64,000 nucleotides of DNA, from positions 9,991 through 73,990 of the forward strand of contig JAKUCV010006880.1 in assembly GCA_028386065.3 (NCBI GenBank). Direction: 5' to 3'. The number at the start of each line of letters is the position of its first letter. Within the stretch, counting starts at the first letter, position 1. This DNA is from Turnera subulata (taxonomy: Eukaryota; Streptophyta; Magnoliopsida; Malpighiales; Passifloraceae). This document shows, one piece after another, positions 13-64,000 of this stretch. The translations under genes and the position numbers were made by a program. The notes below the pieces were generated by a model. The model saw only the letters and a program-made list of their open reading frames with translations. It was not told the DNA's origin and ran no database searches.

Positions 13-2514
13 ATGCTTACTAAAATCACAAGACATCCATTCCCAAAAGTTGAAAGAAGTACTAAGATTCTTGAATTGGTACATAGTGATGTTTGTGACA
101 TGCATAGTAATCCTACTATTGGTGGAAAGAAGTATTTTGTTACTTTTATTGATGATTACTCTAGATTTTGCTATGTTTATTTGTTGAATTCTAAAGATGA
201 AACAATAGATAAATTTAGAGCATTTAAACTAGAGGTTGAATTGCATTGTGAATCACATGTCAAAAGATTAAGAACTGATAGAGGTGGTGAATACTATGAT
301 CCAAGTTTCTTTAATTCAACTGGGATAGTCCATGAAACAATAGCTCCATATACACCACAACAAAATGGTGTTGCAGAACGCAAGAACCGTGTTCTGGTAG
401 AGATGGCAAATGCCATGCTCTCTAATTCCGGTTTGGGATTAGGATTTTGGGGTGAGGCAATATTAACTGCCACTTACATATTGAATCGAGTTCCTAATAA
501 AAGGAGCAAGATTACCCCATATGAGTTTTGGAACAAAAGAAAACCAAATCTTAGTCATCTAAGAGTTTGGGGATGCAGAGCAATTGTGAGAGTTCCTGAG
601 CCTAAGAAAAGAAAATTGGGCGAAAGAGGAATTGAATGCATATTCATAGGATATGCACATCATAGTAAGGCTTATAGGTTCATGGTTATAGAACCTAATG
701 ATGCAATAATAATTAATACTGTTATTGAATCAAGGGATGCCTTATTTGATGAGACAAGATTCAATTCCATTCAAAAATCTATAGCATCTCTACTTGACAT
801 TCCAAACTCAAATACAAAGAAAGACTTAAGTGATGCACTTGAGCAAAGAAGGAGCAAAAGAGTTAAAAGAACTACACAGTCATCAGACTTTTATTACCTA
901 GTTGAAGGTATAAAAGAAGGTACTGAAAATCATGTACCATTTTGTTACAATATAGAAGAAGATCCTAAGACTTATAGTGAAGCTATGAAGTCACAGGATG
1001 CAGCCTTCTGGAAAGAAGCAATCCAAGATGAAATGGATTCTATAATGGGTAACAAAACTTGGAAATTAGTAGACCTACCACCAGGCTCCAAACCGATTGG
1101 ATGCAAATGGATTTTCAAAAGGAAAATGAAGGTTGATGGAACTATTGATAAGTTCAAGGCCAGGTTGGTGGCGAAAGGATTTACTCAGAAAGAAGGAGTA
1201 GATTATTTTGATACCTATTCACCAGTAGCAAGAATTGCTACAATAAGATTATTGATTGCACTTGCATCAATACATAACCTGGTTATTCACCAGATGGATG
1301 TTAAAACAGCATTCTTGAATGGTGAATTGGATGAGGAAGTTTACATGGAACAACCAGAAGGTTTTGTCCTACAAGGACAAGAACATAAGGTTTGTAAACT
1401 TGAGAAGTCCTTGTATGGACTTAAACAAGCACCTAAGCAATGGCATCAAAAGTTTGATGAGGTTGTGCTTGCAGATGGTTACAAGATTAACACATCTGAT
1501 AAATGCGTATATAGCAAATTCAAAGATGGAAAAGGTGTGATTATTTGCTTATACGTAGATGACATGCTTATATTTGGCACGGACATGGATCAAGTTGAGA
1601 ATACCAAGAAGTACTTGTCAGAAAATTTTGATATGAAAGATATGGGAGAAGCAAATGTAATTCTTGGTATAAAGATTATAAGGAGTAGTAATGGGATTAC
1701 ATTGTCGCAATCCCATTACATTGAGAAAATACTCAACAAGTTTGAGAAACTGGAGAGTTCTCCGGTATCTACTCCATTTGATCCAAACTTGAAGTTGGCT
1801 AAAAATCAAGGAAGTCCGGTAGCACAACTAGAATATTCAAAGGTTATAGGCTGCTTGATGTATGCAATGACCTGTACAAGGCCAGACATTGCATTTGCCG
1901 TTGGAAAGCTAAGCAGATTTACTAGCAATCCGGGTAAGCAACATTGGCAGGCAGTTCATAGAGTTTTAAGGTACTTAAAACGAACTATGAACTATGGTAT
2001 ATGCTATACCGGATATCCTTCGGTGTTAGAAGGATTTTCAGATGCTAGTTGGGATTCTAATAAAGATGATTATTCATCTGTAACTGGATGGATCTTCATG
2101 CTTGGTGGGGGTGCAATATCTTGGAGCTCTAAAAAGCAAACTCTTTGCACAGACTCCACTATGGCATCTGAATTTGTGGCCTTAACATCTGCTAGCAAAG
2201 AAGCGGAATGGTTAAAAGATTTACTTTATGAGATTCCGCTGTGGCCCAAACCAATTTCTCCCATATCAATACATTGTGACAGTCAGGCCACATTGTCTAA
2301 AGCATATAGCCAAGTTTACAATGGAAAATCTAGACATATCGGATTAAGACATAGCTATGTACAAGAATTGATAAGAAATTCGGTGATCACCATTGATTTT
2401 GTGAGGTCACAACAAAACTTGGCAGATGCTTTTACAAAAGGACTTACCAGAGATAAGGTAAGTAAGACCTCTAATGGGATGGGTCTCAAGCCAATTTCTA
2501 TAGGTCACCAATAG
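13..2514 (+). CDS. Copia Gag-Pol polyprotein, C-terminal part (integrase, RT, RNase H)
   Basis: This is an 833-residue open frame whose true start lies outside the window; the first Met here is not the initiator. The integrase core appears first (residues ~20-150, with HSDVCD, FIDDYSR and PQQNGVAERKN carrying the D-D-E type residues). The copia RT domain follows from ~335 (KARLVAKGFTQKEGVDY, MDVKTAFLNGELDEEVYM, catalytic YVDDM near 515). RNase H comes last (FSDASWDSNKD, STMASEFVAL, HCDSQATL, SRHIGLRHSYVQELI). These enzymes copy element RNA to DNA and insert it into the genome. The frame is intact. YVDDMLIFG is common in Tork-type copia elements, but lineage assignment is only tentative. Confidence 0.95.
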   Translation: MLTKITRHPFPKVERSTKILELVHSDVCDMHSNPTIGGKKYFVTFIDDYSRFCYVYLLNSKDETIDKFRAFKLEVELHCESHVKRLRTDRGGEYYDPSFFNSTGIVHETIAPYTPQQNGVAERKNRVLVEMANAMLSNSGLGLGFWGEAILTATYILNRVPNKRSKITPYEFWNKRKPNLSHLRVWGCRAIVRVPEPKKRKLGERGIECIFIGYAHHSKAYRFMVIEPNDAIIINTVIESRDALFDETRFNSIQKSIASLLDIPNSNTKKDLSDALEQRRSKRVKRTTQSSDFYYLVEGIKEGTENHVPFCYNIEEDPKTYSEAMKSQDAAFWKEAIQDEMDSIMGNKTWKLVDLPPGSKPIGCKWIFKRKMKVDGTIDKFKARLVAKGFTQKEGVDYFDTYSPVARIATIRLLIALASIHNLVIHQMDVKTAFLNGELDEEVYMEQPEGFVLQGQEHKVCKLEKSLYGLKQAPKQWHQKFDEVVLADGYKINTSDKCVYSKFKDGKGVIICLYVDDMLIFGTDMDQVENTKKYLSENFDMKDMGEANVILGIKIIRSSNGITLSQSHYIEKILNKFEKLESSPVSTPFDPNLKLAKNQGSPVAQLEYSKVIGCLMYAMTCTRPDIAFAVGKLSRFTSNPGKQHWQAVHRVLRYLKRTMNYGICYTGYPSVLEGFSDASWDSNKDDYSSVTGWIFMLGGGAISWSSKKQTLCTDSTMASEFVALTSASKEAEWLKDLLYEIPLWPKPISPISIHCDSQATLSKAYSQVYNGKSRHIGLRHSYVQELIRNSVITIDFVRSQQNLADAFTKGLTRDKVSKTSNGMGLKPISIGHQ

Positions 2515-26917: not shown

Positions 26918-27219
26918 AAAACCTCAAATTTTGGCGTCCAAACCCATCCCAAATCTTATCCTGAAAATCTTATTGAATTTCCTTGCCCTATCTACTTTCA
27001 TACCACCTTGTCATGGAAGCATATAAACATCTTTTTTACAAAAGCACCCTCAAACTGGAAGTTTATCACAAAACTTCCACTCCCACTTCCACTTCCACAT
27101 TATTGTGCTCCTTGATCTCTGACACGAGCTCCTCTATTAGTATATGTGCACAAGATAACCCATTGCTTGATGCTACACTTTCTAGTGCAAGAACAAGGGA
27201 TTATGATCCTGCAGGAAAG
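26918..27219 (+). repeat. Flanking repeat A, left copy (302 bp)
   Basis: Nearly identical to 33087-33376, differing by a 12-bp indel in a CCACTTCCACTT run and scattered substitutions. It starts at AAAAC, the same five bases that follow the 3' LTR of the enclosed copia element, and ends GCAGGAAAGG where it joins that element's 5' LTR at LTR position 49. No known domain is visible in it. Confidence 0.9.
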
Positions 27220-27355
27220 GCCAACTCCCTTGTTATTTATTGTGTTCATTCTGGAAATGAAATAAGAAAATTGAGCGATGCTCTTCTTCACCTCTTCCAT
27301 TCTTCTCCATCTCCTTCTCCTTTAATCCATCTTCATTAACAGTTTATTTATAACA
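27220..27355 (+). repeat. 5' LTR, truncated (136 bp)
   Basis: Aligns with positions 49-185 of the 3' LTR at 32902-33086 and ends TTTATAACA. Confidence 0.9.
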
Positions 27356-29255: not shown

Positions 29256-29916
29256 TCTAAAACTCTGAGCCTCATTGTTGATGTTGACCCTAACACTATC
29301 GTTCTAGGAGAACCACATACCACCCATGTTATTTTCTCCAGGTATCTCAAACCGATTTGTTGGAGGAAAATAGAGTGGTATTACTCCATGATTCTCTGCA
29401 GGTTGCCACAAGGTTTCAGTAATCAACACCATATTGGGCTTATACTCATTCTTCAGATCCCTTAAGGTACGCACAAAATCTTGGGACCTTCTGGCTACAC
29501 CTCTGCAATTTCATAGTAGAAGTCGTACCTTAGACCATGTAGGTGGTAACCCAGACACCCTTGGGACACTCCGAGCCATCATAGAAACCTGATAATAGCT
29601 GCTTTGGTTTAATATTTGACAAGTAGGCTCTAGCTGGAATTCTTGCATTCTATCAGATATGAAAAACATAATAGAGTTAGCCGAGCCATAAAAGGAAGCT
29701 CTTTAGATTGCTTTGGTCCTCTAGGAAGAAAGTTTCTTCCATAGGAGTCACAAAGAACCTAGATGAATAAAGTTCATCAACAAAAACTAAACGAGAAATT
29801 CTTGCAAGTTCACTCGGTAGTTCCTCCTGCTGCTCATTCACCATGCTATAGGCTAGTCTATTCCTCCTTCCTAGAGAGGCACCCTCAACAAAGAAAATGG
29901 TAACGAGGGAAGGCAT
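29256..29916 (-). pseudogene. Endonuclease-like (EEP) gene fragment, disrupted, antisense in copia
   Basis: Reading down from 29916 the frame gives MPSLVTIFFVEGASLG and RRNRLAYSMVNEQQEELP, then LVFVDELYSSRFFVTPM. After a frameshift near 29690 it continues through YGSANSIMFFISDR, a stop inside the NCRG motif, LRDLKNEYKPNMVLITETLWQP and GGMWFS. This is the same family as the plus-strand frame at 58785-59398. The second half resembles the start of LINE-type endonuclease domains (WNCRG ... KPNMVLxTET). The ~130-residue N-terminal part is not recognised. Confidence 0.8.
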
Positions 29917-32901: not shown

Positions 32902-33086
32902 TGTTATAAAACGTGTTGAAGTGAACACTGTTGTACCAACCAAAACAGTGCCAACCCCCTTGTTATTTATTGTGTTCATTCTGGAAATGAAATAAGAAAA
33001 TTGAGCGATGGCTCTTCTTCACCTCTTCCATTCTTCTCCATCTCCTTCTCCTTTAATCCATCTTCATTAACAGTTTATTTATAACA
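32902..33086 (+). repeat. 3' LTR, complete (185 bp)
   Basis: Starts TGTTATAAA and ends TTTATAACA, a perfect 9-bp terminal inverted repeat. It is followed by AAAAC (33087-33091). Confidence 0.93.
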
Positions 33087-33376
33087 AAAACTCAAATTTT
33101 GGCCTCCAAACCCATCCCAAATCTTATCGTGAAAATCTTATTGAATTTCCTTGCCCCATCTACTTTCATACCACCTTGTCATGGAAGCATGTAAACATCT
33201 TTTTTACAAAAGCACCCTCAAACTGGAAGTTTATCACAAAACTTCCACTTCCACATTATTGTGCTCCTTGATCTCTGACACGAGCTCCTCCATTAGTATA
33301 TGTGCACAAGATAACCCATTGCTTGATGCTACACTTTCTAGTGCAAGAACAAGGGATTATGATCCTGCAGGAAAGG
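33087..33376 (+). repeat. Flanking repeat A, right copy (290 bp)
   Basis: Second copy of 26918-27219, starting right at the end of the 3' LTR with AAAAC and ending GCAGGAAAGG before GGGCCCCGGG. Confidence 0.9.
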
Positions 33377-53915: not shown

Positions 53916-55190
53916 TGTTAGAATAGGTGCCCTACGCTAGAGAGGGGGGGAGTGAATAGCATTTTATGGACAATTAAAAAACTTGCAGAAAATAATTGTG
54001 GAATTGAAAGAATGAAGGACACACCGAATTTTATACTGTTTCACACAAACAACCTGTGTGGCTAATCCAGTCCTCTGAGAGACTCTCTCGAAGATTTCAC
54101 TATCTAGGTTAAGCTTCCGGGTGCTTAACAAACCGTATACAAACCTAGAGCTCGAGTCACACGAAACTCTACTTACTTGCTTGAAGAAACCTCACTTTAA
54201 GACTTCTCTCAAGGAAAGAACACACTCTTCCTATGAGTTGCTACAAGGGAACAATCCTCCCTTAAGGTGTATGACAATACTTAAAATCATCAAACAAAAG
54301 CTCTCTTAAAGAGTGGATATGAGTAACAAGTAAAACTCTATAAAGGCAACTCTCAATTCTCAAGGATATTGGCTCATAAAAATTGTAATGTATGTATGAA
54401 AATGAATGCTTAAAATGTAGAGAGTTGATTGATTCTAAACAGAGATGTAAATCCTCTATTTATATGTCTCAAAACATGTATGACCGTTATGGAATCAATC
54501 CAAAATACCTTTAGACAAAATAGCATGGAATGTTGAAAAAATGTCTGTTCAAAACGGCACAACATCGATGTTTAAACATGGAACATCGACGTTTGGCCAG
54601 TAAATTTGAATTATTGGACCAACGGTCATGAGAACATCGATGTTTACTCACTAAACATCGATGTTCATTTGGTTCGGCAAAATCATTTTAAAGCTGATGA
54701 TCATGGAAACATCGATGTTTACTTGAAGAACATCGATGTTCATTTGGTTTGGAAAAATCATTTTAAAGACATCAATTGATGGAACATCGATGTCTAAATT
54801 TAGACATCGATGTTTTGCTGTTGCAAAACATTTTTCAAGTGCAACGGTCATGAGAGCATCGATGTTTGGGATGCCAACATCGATGTTCTGAGCTACTGCT
54901 TGTTTTTGAAAGATTGTTTGAAGGCAGGAACATCGATGTCTAAAACCAAAACATCGATGTTCATTGCTCAAAAAGCATTTTCATGATTGAAAGGATGCTA
55001 TTCAATGCATGAGTAAAATTAACCTTTGTACAATTTGAGTTCCTAACTCCTCTTACTTGTCACTTTAATTCTTGTGCTCTTTTGCTCTTTGATTGATTTC
55101 TTTTTGCTTCAAGATTGTCATCAATTGAATCATGGTTGGTTTGTCAGTATCAAAACCCTGAAATGAGATAAGGAGGCATGAGTTTTAGCA
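53916..55190 (-). repeat. 3' LTR of the Sirevirus-like element (1275 bp)
   Basis: On the plus strand it begins TGTTAGAATAGG at 53916 and ends TTTTAGCA at 55190, next to the polypurine tract. It matches 61273-62042 plus 63576-64000. The minus-strand TATA box TATAAATA lies at 54458-54466, just downstream of the palindrome array. Confidence 0.85.
54561..54971 (-). repeat. Six paired AACATCGATGTT palindromes in the 3' LTR
   Basis: CATCGATG cores begin near 54563, 54635, 54710, 54785, 54857 and 54931. Each is followed by a second core 21 bp later (20 in the fourth pair). Pairs repeat every 72-75 bp, so this is also an array of diverged ~73-bp units. 54632-54666 forms a perfect 15-bp stem with a 5-base loop, and 54783-54814 is a perfect 32-bp palindrome. 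Confidence 0.95.
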
Positions 55191-55420
55191 ATTTCTCCCT
55201 TTTTGATAATGACAAAGAAATAGGAGTATATGCCAAATTTATATGTTCAAAATGAGGAATTAGTATATGCCAAGTTTTGTGGATTTAAAGTGTTATGTTC
55301 AAGTCATGATTCCCCCTAACTTGGTGCATATGCTTCTATGATTCCCCCTAACTTGGTGCATATTATTTCTTTGTGCATATACTTTTTCTTATCTTCCCCC
55401 TTTTGGCATTAGCAAAAAGA
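55191..55420 (-). promoter_or_regulatory. Cluster of polypurine tracts before the 3' LTR
   Basis: On the minus strand AAAAAGGGAGAAAT adjoins the LTR start, and further purine tracts (AAGTTAGGGGGAATCA twice, CCAAAAGGGGGAAGA once) lie upstream. Repeated polypurine tracts at this place are a known Sirevirus feature. Confidence 0.8.
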
Positions 55421-55498: not shown

Positions 55499-56803
55499 TT
55501 AGTTCCCATCATTGTCATCATCATCATCAGATTGTTGTGTAGGGATGTTTTCCTCTTCTTCTTCATCTGCTCCTTCTTCACCATCACCTCCTTCTTGACC
55601 ATCCTCAACATCCATTAGAGTGAAGTCTTCATCATCATCATCACCTTCATCTTCAAAATTGTATCCATAAAGTGTGGTGTGATATGGTGGAGGATTATAA
55701 TTCACACGGGCAAAGTAAGACCGAAGAGAGTGGCTTTGTCTTTGCACTTCCGTGTCAATTCTCTCTATTGCTCGGCCCATGCTTGTCATGCTTAATTGAA
55801 GGCCGTGGATGGAGTCAGCAATGGACTCAAGAGTGACTCCAGAGGTTCGGCGTCGAGAAGGGGCTGCACGGGAACTTTCTGCTTGGGCAGTCCCTGGAGC
55901 TTGCTCGGAAGTTTGGCCGGTCCTTTGTTCTTCCACAGATTTTCCGGTGCGGAAAGTAGCGTCACTTATCGCCCATATTTGGGTGTGAGGAACCTATGCG
56001 CCTTTCCGAGCATCAACACTTGCATGCAATAAAATATCCAAGACCAAAAATGGATAGGGCAATGGATGTTCGGTGTATGCGGATGCATATTCCGACATGT
56101 GTATGAGCACAAATCGTGCCCAATTGATTGGTGCATGGTGGATGATGGCATGAAGTACTTTCACATCTTGAACGGATAAGACGGTGTGATTTCCGTCTCT
56201 TGGCTTGATGACCCGGGTGAGAAGGTAGAACATGACTCGGTACTCCGGGTTGATGGAATGAATGGTTGGCCTCCCGGATTTGTGACGGACAATAGTGGTG
56301 AAGCCAAGCTCTGGCAGAAAAGGTGCTTCATAGACCGTGAGCCATTGATCACCTCCGTAGGATGCAATATCATCTCCCTGGAATAAAAATCCAGCCCTCG
56401 TCCTAAATTCCTCCAATGTCATGGTGATAGACACTCCATTGACACTAGTGGACATGGTGTCACCATCTCGTCAGAGAGTGGAATAGAAGGCTCGGACGAA
56501 TTCAGCACTGTATTGCCAGCCCCTATTAGTCACGAATTCCCACAATCCCGATACGCGGAGAATGGCTTCAAGCTGCGTGTAGTTCTTCTCCTTCGGGTAA
56601 TCCACCGGCAGATACTGTGGAGACGCAATTGAGCTCTTGGAGAAGAGAGACATGAAGTTATGGAGTTCGACTCTGGTAGAGAACCAAATTGAGGTGCCTT
56701 CCACTGCAAATTGAGGAGCTGAGCTTGAAGAGCCTCCTCTTTGCTTTGGTGGTCTTTCCATAGCAGGAGATTTGCCCTTGGAAGATTTCTTCCCGCCTGC
56801 CAT
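55499..56803 (-). pseudogene. Env-position reading frame, plant transposon-protein type, two in-frame stops
   Basis: A single frame of about 434 codons from MAGGKKSSKGKSP (ATG at 56801-56803) to 55499, broken only by TGA at 56471-56473 and TAG at 55994-55996. The N-terminal part is basic. The middle (HNFMSLFSKSS, LRVSGLWEFV, EFVRAFYSTL, VNGVSITMTLEEFRTRAG) resembles the putative plant transposon protein domain found in some retroelements. The C-terminus has a helical stretch and a long Asp/Glu-rich tail. It follows a TATA box and a palindrome array. Its role is unknown. The first stop fits a C-to-T change of CGA. Confidence 0.75.
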
Positions 56804-56896
56804 ACTTGAGAAAAATAAGTAAGGGAATGATATGGAGAGTAAGTATAAAATGAATGAACAGTAGGAAGTGTGTAAAAAGTGAGAAGGAAGCATCAT

Positions 56897-56904
56897 TTAT
56901 ATAG
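56897..56904 (-). promoter_or_regulatory. Internal TATA box for the env-position frame
   Basis: The minus strand reads CCCCTATATAAATGATG, about 95 bp upstream of the ATG at 56803 and about 80 bp downstream of the nearest palindrome. Confidence 0.65.
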
Positions 56905-56978
56905 GGGAGCCCAAAATAGAGCTGTTGGAGTGCTGAAATCAGGCTCCAACGGCTATTTTTTTTTGAAAGTTAACGGAC

Positions 56979-57420
56979 AAACATCGATGTTCAGTCTGAT
57001 GAAATCGATGTTTGACTCCCCAACGGCTATATTTTTTTTGAAAAAGAGGGCTAAACATCGATGTTCAGATGTTCAACATCGATGTTGTCGAGCTTCTGGA
57101 CAAAAAATTTTAATTGCTGCCAACTGATACACATCGATGTTGTCTTGTGTGAACATCGATGTTTAAAAACTTCTGGGAAGAAAAATACATACTGAACATC
57201 GATGTAGATATATCTTGTCAATTGCTTGATTCTGCACATGATGGAACATCGATGTTGGACCATCGACATCGATGTTGTTAAGCTACTGGTTGAAAATGGT
57301 ATGAGCTGAAGTCTGTAAAACATCGATGTTTGATCGTCAACATCAATGTTTTGAAGCCTCGGGGCTAAGTTCGTTCATTCGGAACATCGATGTTTCGTTG
57401 AGCAACATCGATGTTTTGCA
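56979..57420 (-). repeat. Internal array of AACATCGATGTT palindromes
   Basis: Cores near 56982/57004, 57057/57078, 57132/57154, 57197 (single), 57245/57265, 57320/57341 and 57382/57403, again mostly paired at 20-22 bp. It lies directly upstream of the internal TATA box, as the LTR array lies upstream of the LTR TATA box. Confidence 0.93.
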
Positions 57421-57619
57421 GTCTCGACTTTCTTGTTCCCCCTATCTTTTGGCTTAAATGAAGGATACCTACAAAACAACTTAGAAAATAATCTGACGCT
57501 CAAGTCAGTAAAGGTAAGACAATAAAAAATACACAAATTAGATCAATGTAGAGTCAGGGATTCTTAGTTCATTTCGAATTTCCAAAGAATGACTCTTTCT
57601 TTACGGATTTTGATAGTCT

Positions 57620-57717
57620 CGTCACGGCTTACGTCAGCAACCCTCTCGTGTATTCCGTATTTTTCAACATGAAGTCTCGTATATGTCCTTACCGTCATCA
57701 CTTTTTGCTTATAAATA
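57620..57717 (+). promoter_or_regulatory. Putative promoter: as-1-like element plus TATA box
   Basis: 57620-57636 reads, on the minus strand, TGACGTAAGCCGTGACG: two TGACG motifs with the 7-bp spacing of as-1 elements bound by TGA-type bZIP factors. TATAAATA follows at 57710-57717 and the ATG at 57752. Inferred from motifs only. Confidence 0.5.
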
Positions 57718-57751
57718 CCAACCTCATGCTTGGCAAGGCATATCTCAAACC

Positions 57752-58135
57752 ATGGATTCACCAATAAGAACGAGAACTACCTCTGACTCAGAGGAGTTAA
57801 GCCATACTTTTGGTGATCCTCTCTTTGGTGATTCTGATGTTGAGGTAAAGCAGAAGAGAGATCGTAAGCGGAGGAACGTCCCTGGTTATTTGGAAGACAC
57901 GGCCATGTCTCGCAAGCGTCAAAAGAAAACGGTCACCAAAGAAACTGATAATTCGAAGGGCAAAGGGATAGCTCATAGTAGTACACCATTACAGACACTG
58001 GAGCATCTGAAGTTAGCCCTGAAGAAGATCAGTTCTGCTGTGATGCAGATCGAGATGGCTTGTATGGGACTTTCCTCCCAGGTTGAGAATGTCCGCAAAC
58101 ATGTAAAGGAATTAGAGAAGCAAGTAACTCCATAG
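57752..58135 (+). CDS. Hypothetical 127-aa basic protein with C-terminal coiled coil
   Basis: Starts MDSPIRTRTTSDSEELS, then a Lys/Arg-rich part with likely nuclear signals (KQKRDRKRRNVPG, SRKRQKKTVTK), and ends with a heptad-like helix (LKLALKKISSAVMQIEMACM, LSSQVENVRKHVKELEKQV). No family was recognised. The ATG at 57752 is preferred over upstream non-ATG starts because TATAAATA lies 35 bp before it. The LINE-like frame follows 650 bp downstream, so it could be an ORF1-like partner, but this is speculation. Confidence 0.5.
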   Translation: MDSPIRTRTTSDSEELSHTFGDPLFGDSDVEVKQKRDRKRRNVPGYLEDTAMSRKRQKKTVTKETDNSKGKGIAHSSTPLQTLEHLKLALKKISSAVMQIEMACMGLSSQVENVRKHVKELEKQVTP

Positions 58136-58784
58136 AGTGCTTCTTCTCTATTGTAATATCTTATGAAGAAATAAATAAGTAGTTCCTTTTTCTGAATCAA
58201 GCTTATTATTAAACATAAATGGTAGGAATGATATAAGATCTAATAAAATCAAGCCTATTATTAGTAACAAAAAAGAATATAAATGATGAAATCACGAATT
58301 TCTTGTAAAAATAGAAATTAAATATTCCTTGATAAAACGATGGTCATAATTTGTGCAAGCCGAAAAATGACGTTATTACGTGCGGCGAATTAATGAAAAC
58401 AATTAGCAACCACTTGATTATAAACCCCACATGAGCAAAAGCGATTTTTCGGGATTCGTATCCCTTTATTGAAGAATCAAGATAGCTAGAATAATGCATG
58501 TTAGAAGTGAGCTAGAAAACACAAGTGTTTGTAGCCTGAAAACATGCAAAGTGACAAGAGTAATAATGTAGGCAGTGGTAAAGATTTTCAAAAAAGGAAA
58601 GCCTTGAGGAGCATAAACAATTTGTAATTTTGTGAAGAGAGAGGTCTGTTTTACCGTTTATCGAAAAATAGGTAATCGTATTTCTATAAAAGGCAAAGCA
58701 ATGGTTAGTAAATAATCAAAAGCACTTTAAGAAAAAAATACGATTCAGAGAAAAAAAGATACACAAACCACAACAAGACAAAAA

Positions 58785-59398
58785 ATGCCTGCTCCATCAT
58801 CTGTCTTCTTTGTTCAGGGAGCCTCCTTAGGAAGGAGAAATCGGTTAGCCTATAGCTTGATAAATGAGCAACAAGAGGAACTGCCGAACGAGCTTGGGAG
58901 GATGCCTCGTTTGGTCTTCGTTGACGATCTCTACTCGTCCCGGTTCTTTGTCACTTCCATGAAGGAGACAATCTTCCTGAAGCACCAAAGTACCCTGCGA
59001 GCTTCCTTCTACGGCTCGGCCAATTCCATCATGTTCTTCATCTCTGACAGACTTCAGGAGTTCAGGCTGGTGCCTTCTTGCCAGACTCTGAATGAGGGCA
59101 GCTATTACCAAATTTCAATGACTGTTCAGAGCGTTCCGCGGGCAACTGGCTTACCACCCACTTGGCCAAAAGTTCGCCTTCTGGTTTGGAACTGCAGAGG
59201 AATCACTAGGCACTCCAATGAGTTCACACGTACCTTGAGAGATCTGAAGAACCAGTACAAGCCCAACATGGTTCTGCTCACAGAGACTTTATGGCAGCCT
59301 GAGGATAATCACAGTCTCATCCCACTTCATTTTCCTTCAGCAAACCAGTTCGAACTACATGGCCAAAACAATTCGGGCGGAATGTGGTTCTTTGATTA
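58785..59398 (+). pseudogene. Endonuclease-like (EEP) gene, truncated at the copia junction
   Basis: The open frame reads MPAPSSVFFVQGASLG, RRNRLAYSLINEQQEELP, LVFVDDLYSSRFFVTSM and YGSANSIMFFISDRLQEF (residues ~1-95). From ~128 it has VRLLVWNCRGITRHSNEF, LKNQYKPNMVLLTETLWQP and GGMWFFDY, the first third of a LINE-type endonuclease fold. After 59398 the frame runs into antisense copia sequence (WYLDSGCSK on the other strand). The catalytic C-terminal part is missing. A second, more damaged copy lies at 29256-29916. The N-terminal ~120 residues are unrecognised. Confidence 0.75.
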
Positions 59399-61217
59399 TG
59401 TACTTGGAGCATCCGCTATCAAGGTACCAAAGTACACTTGATGCCTTCAAGCATACCTACAAAACAAATCAATAGGTTTTTGGCACCCAAATCTTCTTGG
59501 GTCCTTGAGTGTTAGAGACATAATGGTAATGAGCTTCATTTTATGCCCAATGCCTATGCCTTGTGAAGCAAACGGGAGCAATATGTCTTATTCTATTGCA
59601 ATAATGACAAATAACATTTGGATTGTGCATTCTTCTAGGTTGATAATAGTTACTATATTGCCTATGTTTGTGCATTTTACTAACCTTGTTTTCCTTAGGT
59701 TGTACCTTAGGTTTCCTAGGTTTATTGTTCTTCTTTTTATGTTCATTCTTGAAACCTAGTCCATGCTTATGTGATTGTAAGTTACCTAAGATAGAATTTA
59801 GGTTCTTTTGAGGGGTGTTAAATTTTTTTAGTGTTGTTTCAAGTTCATTAACTTGTTCTTTTAATGTCTCACATGATGAACACTCCCTAGTTTTTTTTTT
59901 TAAGTTCTTCAACTTGTTCCCTTAATGACTTACATGATGAGCATTCCTTAATTGGACTTTCCGGTTTATTAGCACTCCTCTTTCCGTAAAACTTATTCTC
60001 TTCTTTAAGCTTTTCATTTTCACTTGACGCTTTCTCCATATCATTTTCTAGAGTTGCAAGTTGTTTCTTTAAGCCCTTATTAGTTCTAGATGCCGAAATA
60101 AATTCACTATAAGTGCATCAAATGCATTTTGCAATTCTTCATATGTAAAATCTTCATTTAGAGAAGTGGTACTTACCTCTTCCGGTTCTTCTTCCTTTTT
60201 CATGAGACATAGGTTGGCCGTTTCTTCTTCATCGCTATCGGATGATTCATCGCCGGAATCGTCTCCCCAAGAAATGTATGCCCTTTGCTTCTTGTAGGGC
60301 TTCTTTTCCTTTCCTTTCTTTGCCTTGGGGCACTTGGGCTTGATGTGCCCAACCTCTCCACACCCATAGCACTTAGGTGGACCGAAAAGCTTCCTCCCTT
60401 TCCTTTCAAATTCCTTCTTCAAGAATTTGTGAAATTTTCGGATGACTAGTCCTAGTTCTTGATCATCATCGCTAGAGTCCATTTCAGTGAGCTCTTGCGT
60501 CTTGAAGGTGGAAGCTTAGAGGGCTATGTCCTTCTTCTTAGGTTCCTGAAAAGAAGGTTTAAGAATTGTAGTTTCATAGGTTAGAAGATTACCTCTAAGA
60601 TCATCAATGGTTGTGTTCGATGTCCCGATGTTTTCATAGATTGCGTCGGCTTTAGAACGCCATTCGGGAGTGAGGCATCTAAGAAATTTTCTGACCAAGT
60701 CCTTGTCGGAGTAGACATTCTTGAGATCATGAAGGTTATTTACGATTTTTGAAAATCGATCGAACATCTCCTCTATTCTCTCGTTCTCCTTCATTCGAAA
60801 GAGTTTGTATTCTGCAATGAGGGAGTCGATTTTGGCCTCTCGAACTTGATCGGTTCCTTCGTAGGTGATTTCCAGCTTATCCCACATTTCTTTTGCGGTT
60901 GTGCAGCAAGAGATTTTCCGATAATCATCGAGGTTGACTACACAATATAGCATGTTGATTGCTTTGGCGTTGTTTTCAACCATCGTAATGTCTGCAGCGT
61001 CATACTCCGCCTCCGTCTTTGTCACGGTGGTTTCACCAACTTTCTTCGTCGGAATTTGCTCTCCGATCTTCATGATTCGCCAAAGAGCATAGTTGTTGGC
61101 TTGGAGAAAGATTCTCATCCTCTCCTTCCAGTAGCTGTAGTTGGTGCCATCAAAGAGCGGTGGACAAGTGGTTGATTGTCCTTCGAAAAGTCCTGCATAA
61201 TTACTTGAAGAAGCCAT
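59399..61217 (-). pseudogene. Sirevirus-like gag with two CCHC knuckles and protease start, disrupted
   Basis: ATG at 61215-61217 (MASSSNYAGLFEGQSTTCPP). The gag core has FDGTNYSYWKERMRIFL, KEMWDKLEITYEGTDQVREAKI and LKNVYSDKDLVRKFLRCLTPEW. After a TAA stop near 60516 the same frame continues to CYGCGEVGHIKPKC (CCHC) and an acidic stretch. A second frame at 59541-59912 has a coiled coil and CHYCNRIRHIAPVC, then KKIWVPK and WYLDSGCSK at 59400-59500 (the protease Asp-Ser-Gly). Gag packages element RNA in virus-like particles. At least one stop and one frameshift disable it. Confidence 0.85.
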
Positions 61218-61270: not shown

Positions 61271-62042
61271 ATTGTTAGAATAGGTGCCCTACGCTAGGGG
61301 GGGTGAATAGTGTTTTATGGACAAATAAAAAACTTGCAGGAAATAATTGCGGAATTGAAAGAATGAAGGACACACCGAATTTTATACTGGTTCACACACA
61401 CAACTTGTGTGGCTAATCCAGTCCTCCGAGAGACTCTCTCGAAGATTTCACTATCTAGGTTAAGCTTCCGGGTGCTTAACAAACCGTATACAAACCTAGA
61501 GCTCGAGTCACACGAAACTCTACTTACTTGCTTGAAGAAACCTCACTTCAAGACTTCTCTCAAGGAAAGAACACACTCTTCCTATGAGTTGCTACAAGGG
61601 AACAATCCTCCCTTAAGGTGTATGACAACACTTAAAATCACTCAAACAAAAGCTCTCTCAAAGAGTGGATATGAGTAACAAGTAAAACTCTATAAAGACA
61701 ACTCTCAATACTCAAGGATATTAGCTCATAAAAATTGTAATGTATGTATGACAATGAATGCTTAAAATATAGAGAGTTGATTGATTCTAAACAGAGATGT
61801 AAATCCTCTATTTATATGTCTCAAAACATGTATGACCGTTATGGAATCAATCCAAAATACCTTTAGACAAAATAGCTTGGAATGTTGAAAAAGATGTCTG
61901 CTCAAAACGACACAACATCGATGTTTAAACTTAGAACATCGATGTTTGGCCAGTAAATTTGAATTATTGGACCAACGGTCATGAGAACATCGATGTTTAC
62001 AAAAGGGAACATCGATGTGTTTGCTAGTAAATATGAATTATT

Positions 62043-63575
62043 TGAAAGTATCCGGGCATGCAAATTTACAATCAAATGCAATAACATACGCAACGAAAAA
62101 ACCGGATACACATGGAGGATCCAAGTGAAGGGTAGCTAAACCGAATAACAATTTTTACGTACCTAAATCGGTTGAGGTCTTTCACCCAACTGTAGGGACG
62201 AATCAGCAAGAGCCGGACAGAAATCCCGCCCGTCTACGGTATCCACACGAACCGTGATAACTAGTTGGAATCGTCATATGATTACCAACCCGAGCACCCC
62301 CGAACTGATGTGCTAGCAGCAGGTTTCGGAAGCTAGAGTTTGTGGTATTTTCTTCTTTCTCAAAGAAGGTGTGTATGGTCTGAAACTCACAAGAACTCTC
62401 AAGACTCTCTCAAGGCTCAATACTCTGAAAAAATTTCAAACTCAAAGTGATGAATCCCCAAGCAAAATCAGATTATGCTTAATCAAATCCCACTCACAAA
62501 AGCAAGGGACAAAGTGGCCAACACCTTTGGCCACCACTAACTCTTGGTGGGATTACACATCACATGGTACTAATTATGGTTCAATAAATCAGACATTTAG
62601 TGAACCAAACCAGCCCAAAACGACCCTGGTCCAACCACGATCCAACCACAGTCCAACTATGGTCCAACCACAAACTCAAATACCTAGTTCAACCATAGTC
62701 CAACCATGGTTCAACCACCAGCTCGAATCAACGGCTCTAAGTGTATGACCCTGTAGGTACTTGTAACGTCCGACAATAATTGTAAACTCATTTACAATTA
62801 TAAGCAAAGAGCGGCGTCTAGCAACACATCATTGCTACCCGAACGACAAGATCAGTACTGATTCATATGCCTCGCAAACATGTCATCGTTCCTTCGTCCC
62901 ATTACCAAGATTAAACACGAGACATGGAATATGTCAATCTCGTATATGTTCAATCTCGGTTTCTTGATCCTCGAGTTAACCGCGTAAAACGGATACCTAT
63001 GATATCACCATATCATAATCTGAGCATGGCCATGCATTTACGGTTCAACTCTATCAAGATACCATTCGATAATATACCCGTTATATGGGTTGGACGAATC
63101 CTCTCTGGATCATACAAAACCCACTACACATTTATCATATACCCAATGATTACACTAAGGTCTACTCATTTATGAAATAGCCAAGAGTAATATCAAAGTA
63201 TACGACTCATATGTTGGGAACCTTGATGATCTCAGGTCTAAGGACAATACATATAAGAACCGCTATCGACAAACATATAACGTTCCATGTAGCATTCTTA
63301 TGTGGGTCGGTCCAGTCCACAAGTTCTCTAACTTGTACCCGTATGTAGAATTCATATCACATATAAATTCTCAACATACGCTAGTCTTAATTTATTATTA
63401 CAACCCATCCATAATAATAATCGACTAGGGATATTTAAGAATATAAAATATTCTAGGGTTATAAATATGTGCAAGCGTTTATCTCATAAACTATATTTAT
63501 TGGAATAACCTTGATGTGTATACATGACTACAAACAATCTTCCATTGATTGGCTTTTGGGCATATTACACTAACA
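62043..63575 (-). mobile_element. Solo LTR (1533 bp) inserted in the Sirevirus-like 5' LTR
   Basis: On the plus strand it runs from TGAAAGTATCC to CACTAACA and is flanked by TTATT at 62038-62042 and 63576-63580. Removing it restores the match to the other LTR (AATTATT joined to GAGTCCAACGG). It carries no coding domain. The minus strand is probably the sense strand, from the T/A-rich start TGTTAGTGTAATATG. An array of 11-bp TCCAACCACNN units lies at 62629-62719. Confidence 0.9.
62629..62719 (+). repeat. 11-bp tandem units within the solo LTR
   Basis: Four consecutive units of TCCAACCACGA type (62641 onward and just before), then further spaced copies (TTCAACCATAG, TCCAACCATGG, TTCAACCACCA). 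Confidence 0.8.
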
Positions 63576-64000
63576 TTATTGAGTCCAACGGTCACTAGAA
63601 CATCGATGTTTACTCACTGAACATCGATGTTCAATTGGTTCGGCAAAATCATTTTAAAGCTGATGATCATGGAAACATCGATGTTTACTTGAAGAACATC
63701 GATGTTCATTTGGTTCGGCAAAATCAATTTAAAGACATCAATTGATGGAACATCGATGTCTAAATTAAAAAATCGATGTTTTGCTGTTGTAAAACATTTT
63801 TCAAGTGCAACGGTCATGAGCACATCGATGTTTGGGATGCCAACATCGATGTTCTGAGCTACTGCCTGTTTTTGAAAGATTGTTTGAAGGCAGGAACTTC
63901 GATGTTTAAAACCAGAACATCGATGTTCATTGCTCAAAAAGCATTTTCATGATTGAAAGGATGCTATTGAATACATGAGTAAAATTGATTTTGTTTTGAG

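Follow-up and report, generated by a model that had tools for sequence, protein, structure and literature searches.

A probable internal promoter upstream of the env-position gene in an ambisense, Sirevirus-like element of Turnera subulata

Palindromic boxes in Sireviruses and in a Turnera element

Palindromic boxes have been described in the long terminal repeats (LTRs) of 13 Sireviruses by Bousios et al. (2010, PMC2829016), whose main text places them also in the linker of the nine ENV-bearing elements, with 77 of the 79 linker copies lying upstream of ENV. The same text cites an internal-promoter hypothesis of 2002 and gives this promoter as not conclusively identified in 2010. We analyzed a stretch of 64,000 bp from Turnera subulata (assembly GCA_028386065.3, contig JAKUCV010006880.1, positions 9,991 to 73,990), named the window hereafter, which carries on its minus strand an LTR element with arrays of the palindrome ACATCGATGT both in the LTRs and upstream of a gene in env position, open reading frame 3 (ORF3). 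Since boxes in the LTR and upstream of ENV are already published, this element is a new case of a known pattern, the idea and the double location having been in print since 2010.

The likeness to the repeated motif (RM) boxes of Sireviruses extends to several features given in the main text of PMC2829016: the palindromes are numerous both in the LTR and ahead of the env-position gene, a TATA box follows the LTR cluster, and the linker of ENV-less elements is reported to be free of boxes. For Tnd-1, the same source gives the polypurine variant AGGGGGAA, found here too and given also for ToRTL1, together with an ATCGAT-type palindrome. The repeated word is different, ACATCGATGT in the window and CGG-CCG in the published boxes, and among the literature matches listed for ACATCGATGT there was no paper on plant mobile elements. 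For the window family we describe a positioned internal TATA box, sites of the mitosis-specific activator (MSA) type and a leader free of ATGs; in the main text of PMC2829016, the words "antisense" and "MYB" are absent. What is added to the known palindromes is thus a positioned candidate promoter with MSA-type sites and an ambisense gene order.

The region upstream of ORF3

The palindrome ACATCGATGT occurs 33 times in exact form in the window, against 0.05 expected from shuffles, and all copies fall inside the one element: 10 in the 3′ LTR, 12 in the part of the 5′ LTR that lies in the window and 11 in an internal array (56981–57414, minus strand). The internal palindromes are often paired about 21 bp apart, and one-mismatch forms stand at 57002 and 57340. 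The spacing of array, TATA box and start codon given by the original prediction was confirmed: the internal box, TATATAA (56897–56903, minus strand), starts at 56903, 78 bp past the last palindrome and 100 bp before the ORF3 ATG at 56803, and in the 3′ LTR, TATAAATA at 54464 is found 98 bp past the last LTR palindrome. The leader, taken from 30 bp past the start of the TATA box (56804–56873, minus strand), is pyrimidine-rich and ATG-free. Two sites with CCGTT on the sense strand (57019–57029 and 56945–56955, minus strand) fit YCYAACGGYYA; only three perfect MSA sites exist in the whole window, these two and one in the 5′ LTR.

We read the region before ORF3 as an internal RNA polymerase II promoter, with a probability of about 0.77. 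The palindrome array, the MYB3R/MSA-type sites and the TATA box would initiate a short mRNA roughly 30 bp past the TATA box, and the first AUG of this mRNA would be that of ORF3. One factor may bind the palindromes at both the LTR and the internal promoters; we propose that gag and ORF3 would thereby be switched on together, probably in dividing cells. A promoter of its own for the third gene, as originally predicted, is supported at the level of sequence by the array, the CCGTT sites, the position of the TATA box and the ATG-free leader, all of which are kept in sister copies.

Sister copies were collected by searching the host genome with the first 110 residues of ORF3 (721 candidates, 150 scored) and with the ORF3 start of C15, a diverged relative (695 candidates, 150 scored). 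The close set consists of the 30 best loci (L026–L055), including the window copy (L026) and C24 (L042); the truncated locus L030 was left out of the 29-locus counts of CCGTT sites, leader ATGs, acceptor blocks and leader dN/dS. The diverged set consists of 11 loci, C15 and ten more. None of these loci lacks the internal array: it is present in the window copy and in 29 of 29 sisters, the kilobase ahead of ORF3 containing three palindromes or more in each of the 30 close loci (6–13 each), and exact palindromes precede ORF3 in all 11 diverged loci (10 in C15, 1–4 in about 370 bp in the other ten). The joint occurrence of array, TATA box and frame held for the array (30/30), largely for the box, with TATA[AT]A at about −98 to −103 in 25 of 30 close loci (24 of 29 without the window copy), and in only 6 of 30 for a frame of at least 400 aa. 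The five close loci without the canonical box carry CTATACATATAG (three) or CTATTTAAG (one) or are truncated (one). In the 11 diverged loci, the same succession is observed upstream of ORF3, composed of palindromes, CCGTT sites, an A/T-rich box and a pyrimidine-rich leader, followed by the ATG.

A perfect MSA site lies upstream of ORF3 in 28 of the 30 close loci, while the first kilobase of ORF3 in these loci holds neither palindromes nor perfect MSA sites. Over the 330 bp that precede the ATG, CCGTT/AACGG occurs 72 times in 29 close loci against 12.9 in mononucleotide shuffles (maximum 25), and 39 times in the 11 diverged loci against 4.5 (maximum 12). The sites have the same orientation in 110 of 111 cases and mostly read TAGCCGTT, the complement of AACGGCTA. 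Genome-wide, a palindrome followed after 5–35 bp by TAGCCGTT was matched 2392 times, compared with once for the reversed pattern. According to PMC10905365, MSA elements are bound by MYB3R factors and lie near start sites in either orientation; in the window family, AACGG-core elements lie near the predicted start, and the CCGTT cluster upstream of ORF3 fits such an element. The LTRs of the window element, C24 and C15 carry TGACCGTT, and AACGGTCA is found beside the TATA box in the LTRs of the window element and C15. Each ACATCGATGT palindrome includes one ATG, and the segment from the first palindrome to −70 contains 14–21 ATGs per locus; the last 70 bp contain none in 28 of 29 loci.

ORF3 (55499–56803, minus strand) is Transposase_32-like. 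In the window copy, the frame had been taken as 434 open codons and is in fact interrupted by two in-frame stops, TGA at codon 111 (56473–56471) and TAG at codon 270 (55996–55994). Two intact relatives score 44.8 and 44.9 bits with PF20167 (Transposase_32), against a cut-off of 45, over profile positions 5–177 of 177. ORF3 is under purifying selection, as testified by a dN/dS of 0.24 over its first 330 bp and of 0.92 and 1.05 in the shifted frames. For the leader, translated in the ORF3 frame, dN/dS is 0.95 (31 codons; this and the other ratios around the start codon come from the 17 loci with the TATA box exactly at −100). A signal-peptide-like N-terminal extension of ORF3 from an ATGATG beside the TATA box was considered and is not favored: the ratio in that frame is this 0.95, an in-frame ATG is lacking there in 10 of 29 loci, and in 7 of 29 the leader length is out of frame. 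Against its rejection stands a ratio of 0.83 for the first 93 bp of ORF3 itself.

The internal and LTR arrays share a grammar. Palindrome spacings of 20–22, 50–55 and 72–76 bp recur in both kinds of array in the elements examined, whereas the spacers of the internal and LTR arrays of one element are alike only at the level of shuffles in the three elements tested; the exceptions are one of seven window spacers above the 99% shuffle line, and two spacers that fall on it, one from the window and one from C15. Recurrent spacing between chance-level spacers is better explained by constrained binding geometry than by recent copying. The proposal that the internal array was copied from the LTR promoter is therefore not borne out, while co-evolution of the two, also proposed, is compatible with their common word and spacing. 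In the host assembly (518.7 Mb), palindrome pairs number 36171 per strand; the reversed pattern yields 16. Three gag-pol elements without an ORF3 match (two in C8 and one in C20), whose gag is only about 27% identical to that of the window, carry no internal array and have end arrays only, called LTR by position and not by aligned repeats. "Without an ORF3 match" denotes here no tblastn match to the window ORF3 at 1e-4, which a different kind of ORF3 would escape. C23, with gag-region DNA 78% like that of the window over 981 bp, has two arrays beyond the ends of pol and no ORF3 match by the same tblastn threshold. As a separate observation, contigs C112, C147, C158 and C170 show three clusters of palindrome and TAGCCGTT in a row, about 4.1–4.7 and 2.5–2.7 kb apart; they look like a further family with an LTR-internal-LTR layout and MSA-type sites in the LTR too.

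Several points weigh against an internal promoter. The 30 close loci were chosen by their similarity to the window ORF3 and are consequently one subfamily, not independent cases. Only 5 of the 11 diverged loci have the canonical TATA[AT]A, the others showing no more than A/T-rich stretches; the TATA-like pattern used for these loci was widened after inspection, and the canonical count alone serves as evidence. Sites in the diverged loci mostly keep AACGGCTA and not the full MSA consensus, CCGTT/AACGG enrichment is uneven across LTR stretches (P 0.000, 0.031, 0.33, 0.008 and 0.082), and the core is absent from the arrays of C8, C20 and C12. Leaders free of ATG barely exceed what composition provides, with 28 of 29 against 23.6 expected in the close loci and 10 of 11 against 8.8 in the diverged ones. 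The ratio of 0.83 over the first 93 bp of ORF3, together with 0.43 in frame 2 of the leader (31 codons), leaves the exact ORF3 start codon unsettled by selection, and the former moves a slight weight (0.01) from the promoter to splicing. Lastly, a splice-acceptor-like block, TTTTGYAGG (57463–57476, minus strand), lies upstream of the array and is kept in 25 of 29 close loci; in the diverged C15, it reads TTTTGCAGGTACCC. In the window, it is followed by AGGGGGAA at 57436–57443, an arrangement seen in C15 too, which may represent a splice acceptor, an internal polypurine tract or both.

This block makes it possible that ORF3 is produced from LTR-started RNA by splicing at TTTTGYAGG, or else by readthrough, the array and TATA box being by-products. 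Such routes have precedents, as splice acceptors were predicted in BAGY2 and Athila and stop suppression was reported for SIRE1 (as told in the main text of PMC2829016). Yet, the block lies before the array, and a leader spliced there would still carry the array, with 14 or more ATGs ahead of ORF3 in the 25 loci counted; RNA begun upstream of the array would likewise have at least 14. Moreover, ORF3 is not adjacent to pol: in C15, a gap of 2.3 kb separates the end of pol from ORF3, and in the window element and C24 no pol was found in the interval from gag to ORF3. Neither splicing nor readthrough accounts for the fixed place of the TATA box and the CCGTT cluster. We regard this explanation as unlikely, and as weaker than an internal promoter.

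The arrays could instead serve chromatin, anti-silencing, recombination or packaging, leaving the TATA-like sequence without a role. Word and spacing are indeed kept over diverged families without common spacers, among them elements lacking an ORF3 match; no factor that binds the palindromes is known, and the TATA box is degenerate in 6 of the 11 diverged loci. The internal array is nevertheless found where ORF3 is found and not in the three mapped gag-pol elements without an ORF3 match, and both kinds of array in the window stand upstream of a TATA box; we consider such a role quite improbable. Descent of the internal array from an old LTR, nested or recombined, which brought its promoter along, would agree with the shared word and spacing and with the one window spacer that is more alike than shuffles. 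The remaining spacers are at chance level, the array is followed by leader and ORF3, and the arrangement is common to C15, whose ORF3 is 51–67% alike by piece; we give such an origin very little credence. An internal promoter is the reading retained below.

Antisense genes on the other side of the array

Antisense additional ORFs are known in Ty3/gypsy elements, namely Grande (gene23), RIRE2, Retand and PvRetro13, and gene23 of Grande is reported to have its own promoter (PMC7264820, Vicient and Casacuberta 2020; PMC4093653; PMC11963269). Two genes antisense to the window element are comparable. ORF_A (57752–58135, plus strand) codes for 127 aa and is preceded by TATAAATA 42 bp before its ATG (57710–57717, plus strand). 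It is also preceded, 132 bp before the ATG, by a CGTCA-N7-CGTCA pair (57620–57636, plus strand), which we take to be as-1-like. ORF_B (58785–59441, plus strand) codes for 218 aa, alignable to aa 202, with TATAAA 100 bp before its ATG (58685–58690, plus strand); this box is TATAAA in C15 and in the second C24 copy as well, and CTATAACAG in the C24 copy inside the element. With the array placed between ORF3 and two antisense genes that have their own TATA boxes, the element family is ambisense in gene order.

Among the 30 close loci, ORF_A lies antisense to and upstream of ORF3 in 27; in these, its ATG is in place in 20 with at least 120 codons open from there in 15, a TATA box at about −42 is present in 23 and the as-1-like pair in 20. 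A start of ORF_A at the upstream in-frame ATG (57683) was rejected, since the frame from there closes at codon 5 in 18 of 27 loci. The idea that the DNA between gag and the array is a private insertion was also rejected, 57420–58300 being matched in 28 of 29 sisters, 26 of them over at least 380 bp. First-look candidates in the host genome number 3866 for ORF_A and 7906 for ORF_B, of which 150 each were scored. Gene order was paired by coordinates using the best 80 of 150 ORF3 matches, 105 of 150 ORF_A matches and part of the 150 ORF_B matches: 64 of the 80 ORF3 matches have an ORF_A match within 4.5 kb, upstream and antisense in 64 of 64, and ORF_A/ORF_B pairs within 2.5 kb are on the same strand in 71 of 71 cases, mostly 1.1 kb apart. 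In C15, the order is gag, pol, antisense ORF_B (69% identity), array and ORF3, and ORF_A was not found. An antisense ORF between pol and the 3′ LTR, characteristic of the Grande/Retand type, is thus present in C15, and the window element and C24 have their antisense ORFs after gag. Two contigs, C3129 and C5120, show facing pairs of ORF_A/ORF_B cassettes about 9 kb apart with similar spacing, which may be a duplicated region or a nested pair.

Both antisense genes are under purifying selection. For ORF_A, dN/dS is 0.37 compared with 0.83–1.04 in the other frames (20 loci with ungapped matches of at least 120 aa); for ORF_B, it is 0.12 between the window and C15 at a dS of 1.3, dS being saturated in two pairs with the second C24 copy. 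The C-terminal half of ORF_B has a weak endonuclease-like match below the Pfam cut-off. Protein database searches returned 89 candidates for ORF_B and six for ORF_A, none of them at E 0.001, and a PDB search gave no matches or chance-level ones; a single-sequence fold of ORF_B was discarded at a mean confidence (pLDDT) of 35. A second copy of ORF_B, about 72% identical and with a frame change, lies in the window at 29310–29916 (minus strand), inside another LTR-type element and flanked by direct repeats (26918–27220 and 33086–33376). Elements of more than one kind seem to carry ORF_B.

The window family differs from the Grande/Retand type in being Ty1/copia, with a copia gag and, in C15, a copia-type pol, and from the Ty3/gypsy elements with antisense ORFs in adding a sense ORF3, divergent around the palindrome array (the relation of these elements was compared by Pfam only). 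An additional ORF of Athila is likewise in sense and has a partial PF20167-like stretch, but Athila is Ty3/gypsy and a transmembrane domain is reported in an Athila additional ORF (PMC11728184). In the SIRE lineage, a sense extra ORF 3′ of pol is typical, being present in 74% of the elements surveyed by Neumann et al. (2019, PMC6317226). Counts there were restricted to ORFs of 250 codons or more, and the antisense genes of 127 and 218 aa would therefore have been missed. No antisense genes of Sireviruses were found described in the literature searched, and "antisense" is absent from the main texts of four papers on the lineage or on plant elements in general. More tentatively, and with considerable doubt, the array could control transcription in both directions, starting sense ORF3 as well as antisense ORF_A and ORF_B from facing promoters, and be tied to the LTR promoter by the same palindrome-binding factor and to mitosis by the MYB3R sites, while an extra protein of the element itself would bind the palindromes, for example to counter silencing or to set timing.

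The host element and its additional genes

Judged by its gag and LTR-end features against those in the main text of PMC2829016, the host element resembles a Sirevirus of the Ty1/copia group. Its gag frame (60516–61217, minus strand, 233 aa) matches PF14223 at E 4.1e-25, as expected of a copia-type gag, and DNA coding for a zinc finger was recognized by eye after it. C15 has a copia pol, 33% identical over residues 16–825 to another copia pol of the window. The 5′ LTR (61273–64000, minus strand) carries a palindrome array and a TATA box at 61816 and runs beyond the window to C6220:74187; the 3′ LTR (53916–55190, minus strand, 1275 bp) has its array at 54562–54960, its TATA box at 54464 and a C-rich 3′ end. 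The two LTRs are 95.2 to 95.8% identical; TGTTAGAA opens the 5′ LTR and TTCTAACA closes both, and the 5-bp target duplication is imperfect (TATAG/TTTAG).

Sireviruses combine CA/ATTGG at the junction of the 5′ LTR and the primer binding site with TATCAGAGC. The junction is exact in the window element, and the primer binding site, TAGCGGAGC, deviates with 7 of 9 matches to TATCAGAGC. Of the multiple polypurine copies of the Sirevirus form AGGGGGAG, the terminal one adjoins AT/TG; the window element has four copies of AGGGGGAA, three of them in the gap between ORF3 and the 3′ LTR (55310–55401, minus strand, starts at 55310, 55342 and 55394), and a deviating terminal tract, AAAGGGAGAA. A C-rich integrase signal, CTATTCACCCCCCCTAGCG, lies about 20 bp before the CA end of the LTR, and a palindromic repeated motif precedes the LTR TATA box as in Sireviruses, with the core ATCGAT as in Tnd-1. 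The 5′ LTR is split by a 1533-bp TG...CA insert (62043–63575) with AATAA duplicated, probably a solo LTR of another family. At the other end of the window (13–2514, plus strand), an 833-aa copia pol frame of another element (rve, SH3 and RVT_2) is open throughout.

For the expression of the gene downstream of pol in Sireviruses, a candidate promoter can now be named down to its start point and factor class. ORF_A and ORF_B, under purifying selection and with thousands of candidates in the host genome, suggest that, besides gag, pol and "env", elements of this type contain further genes that have their own promoters. A second, built-in promoter before the third gene would make the old question of how such genes are switched on a testable one.
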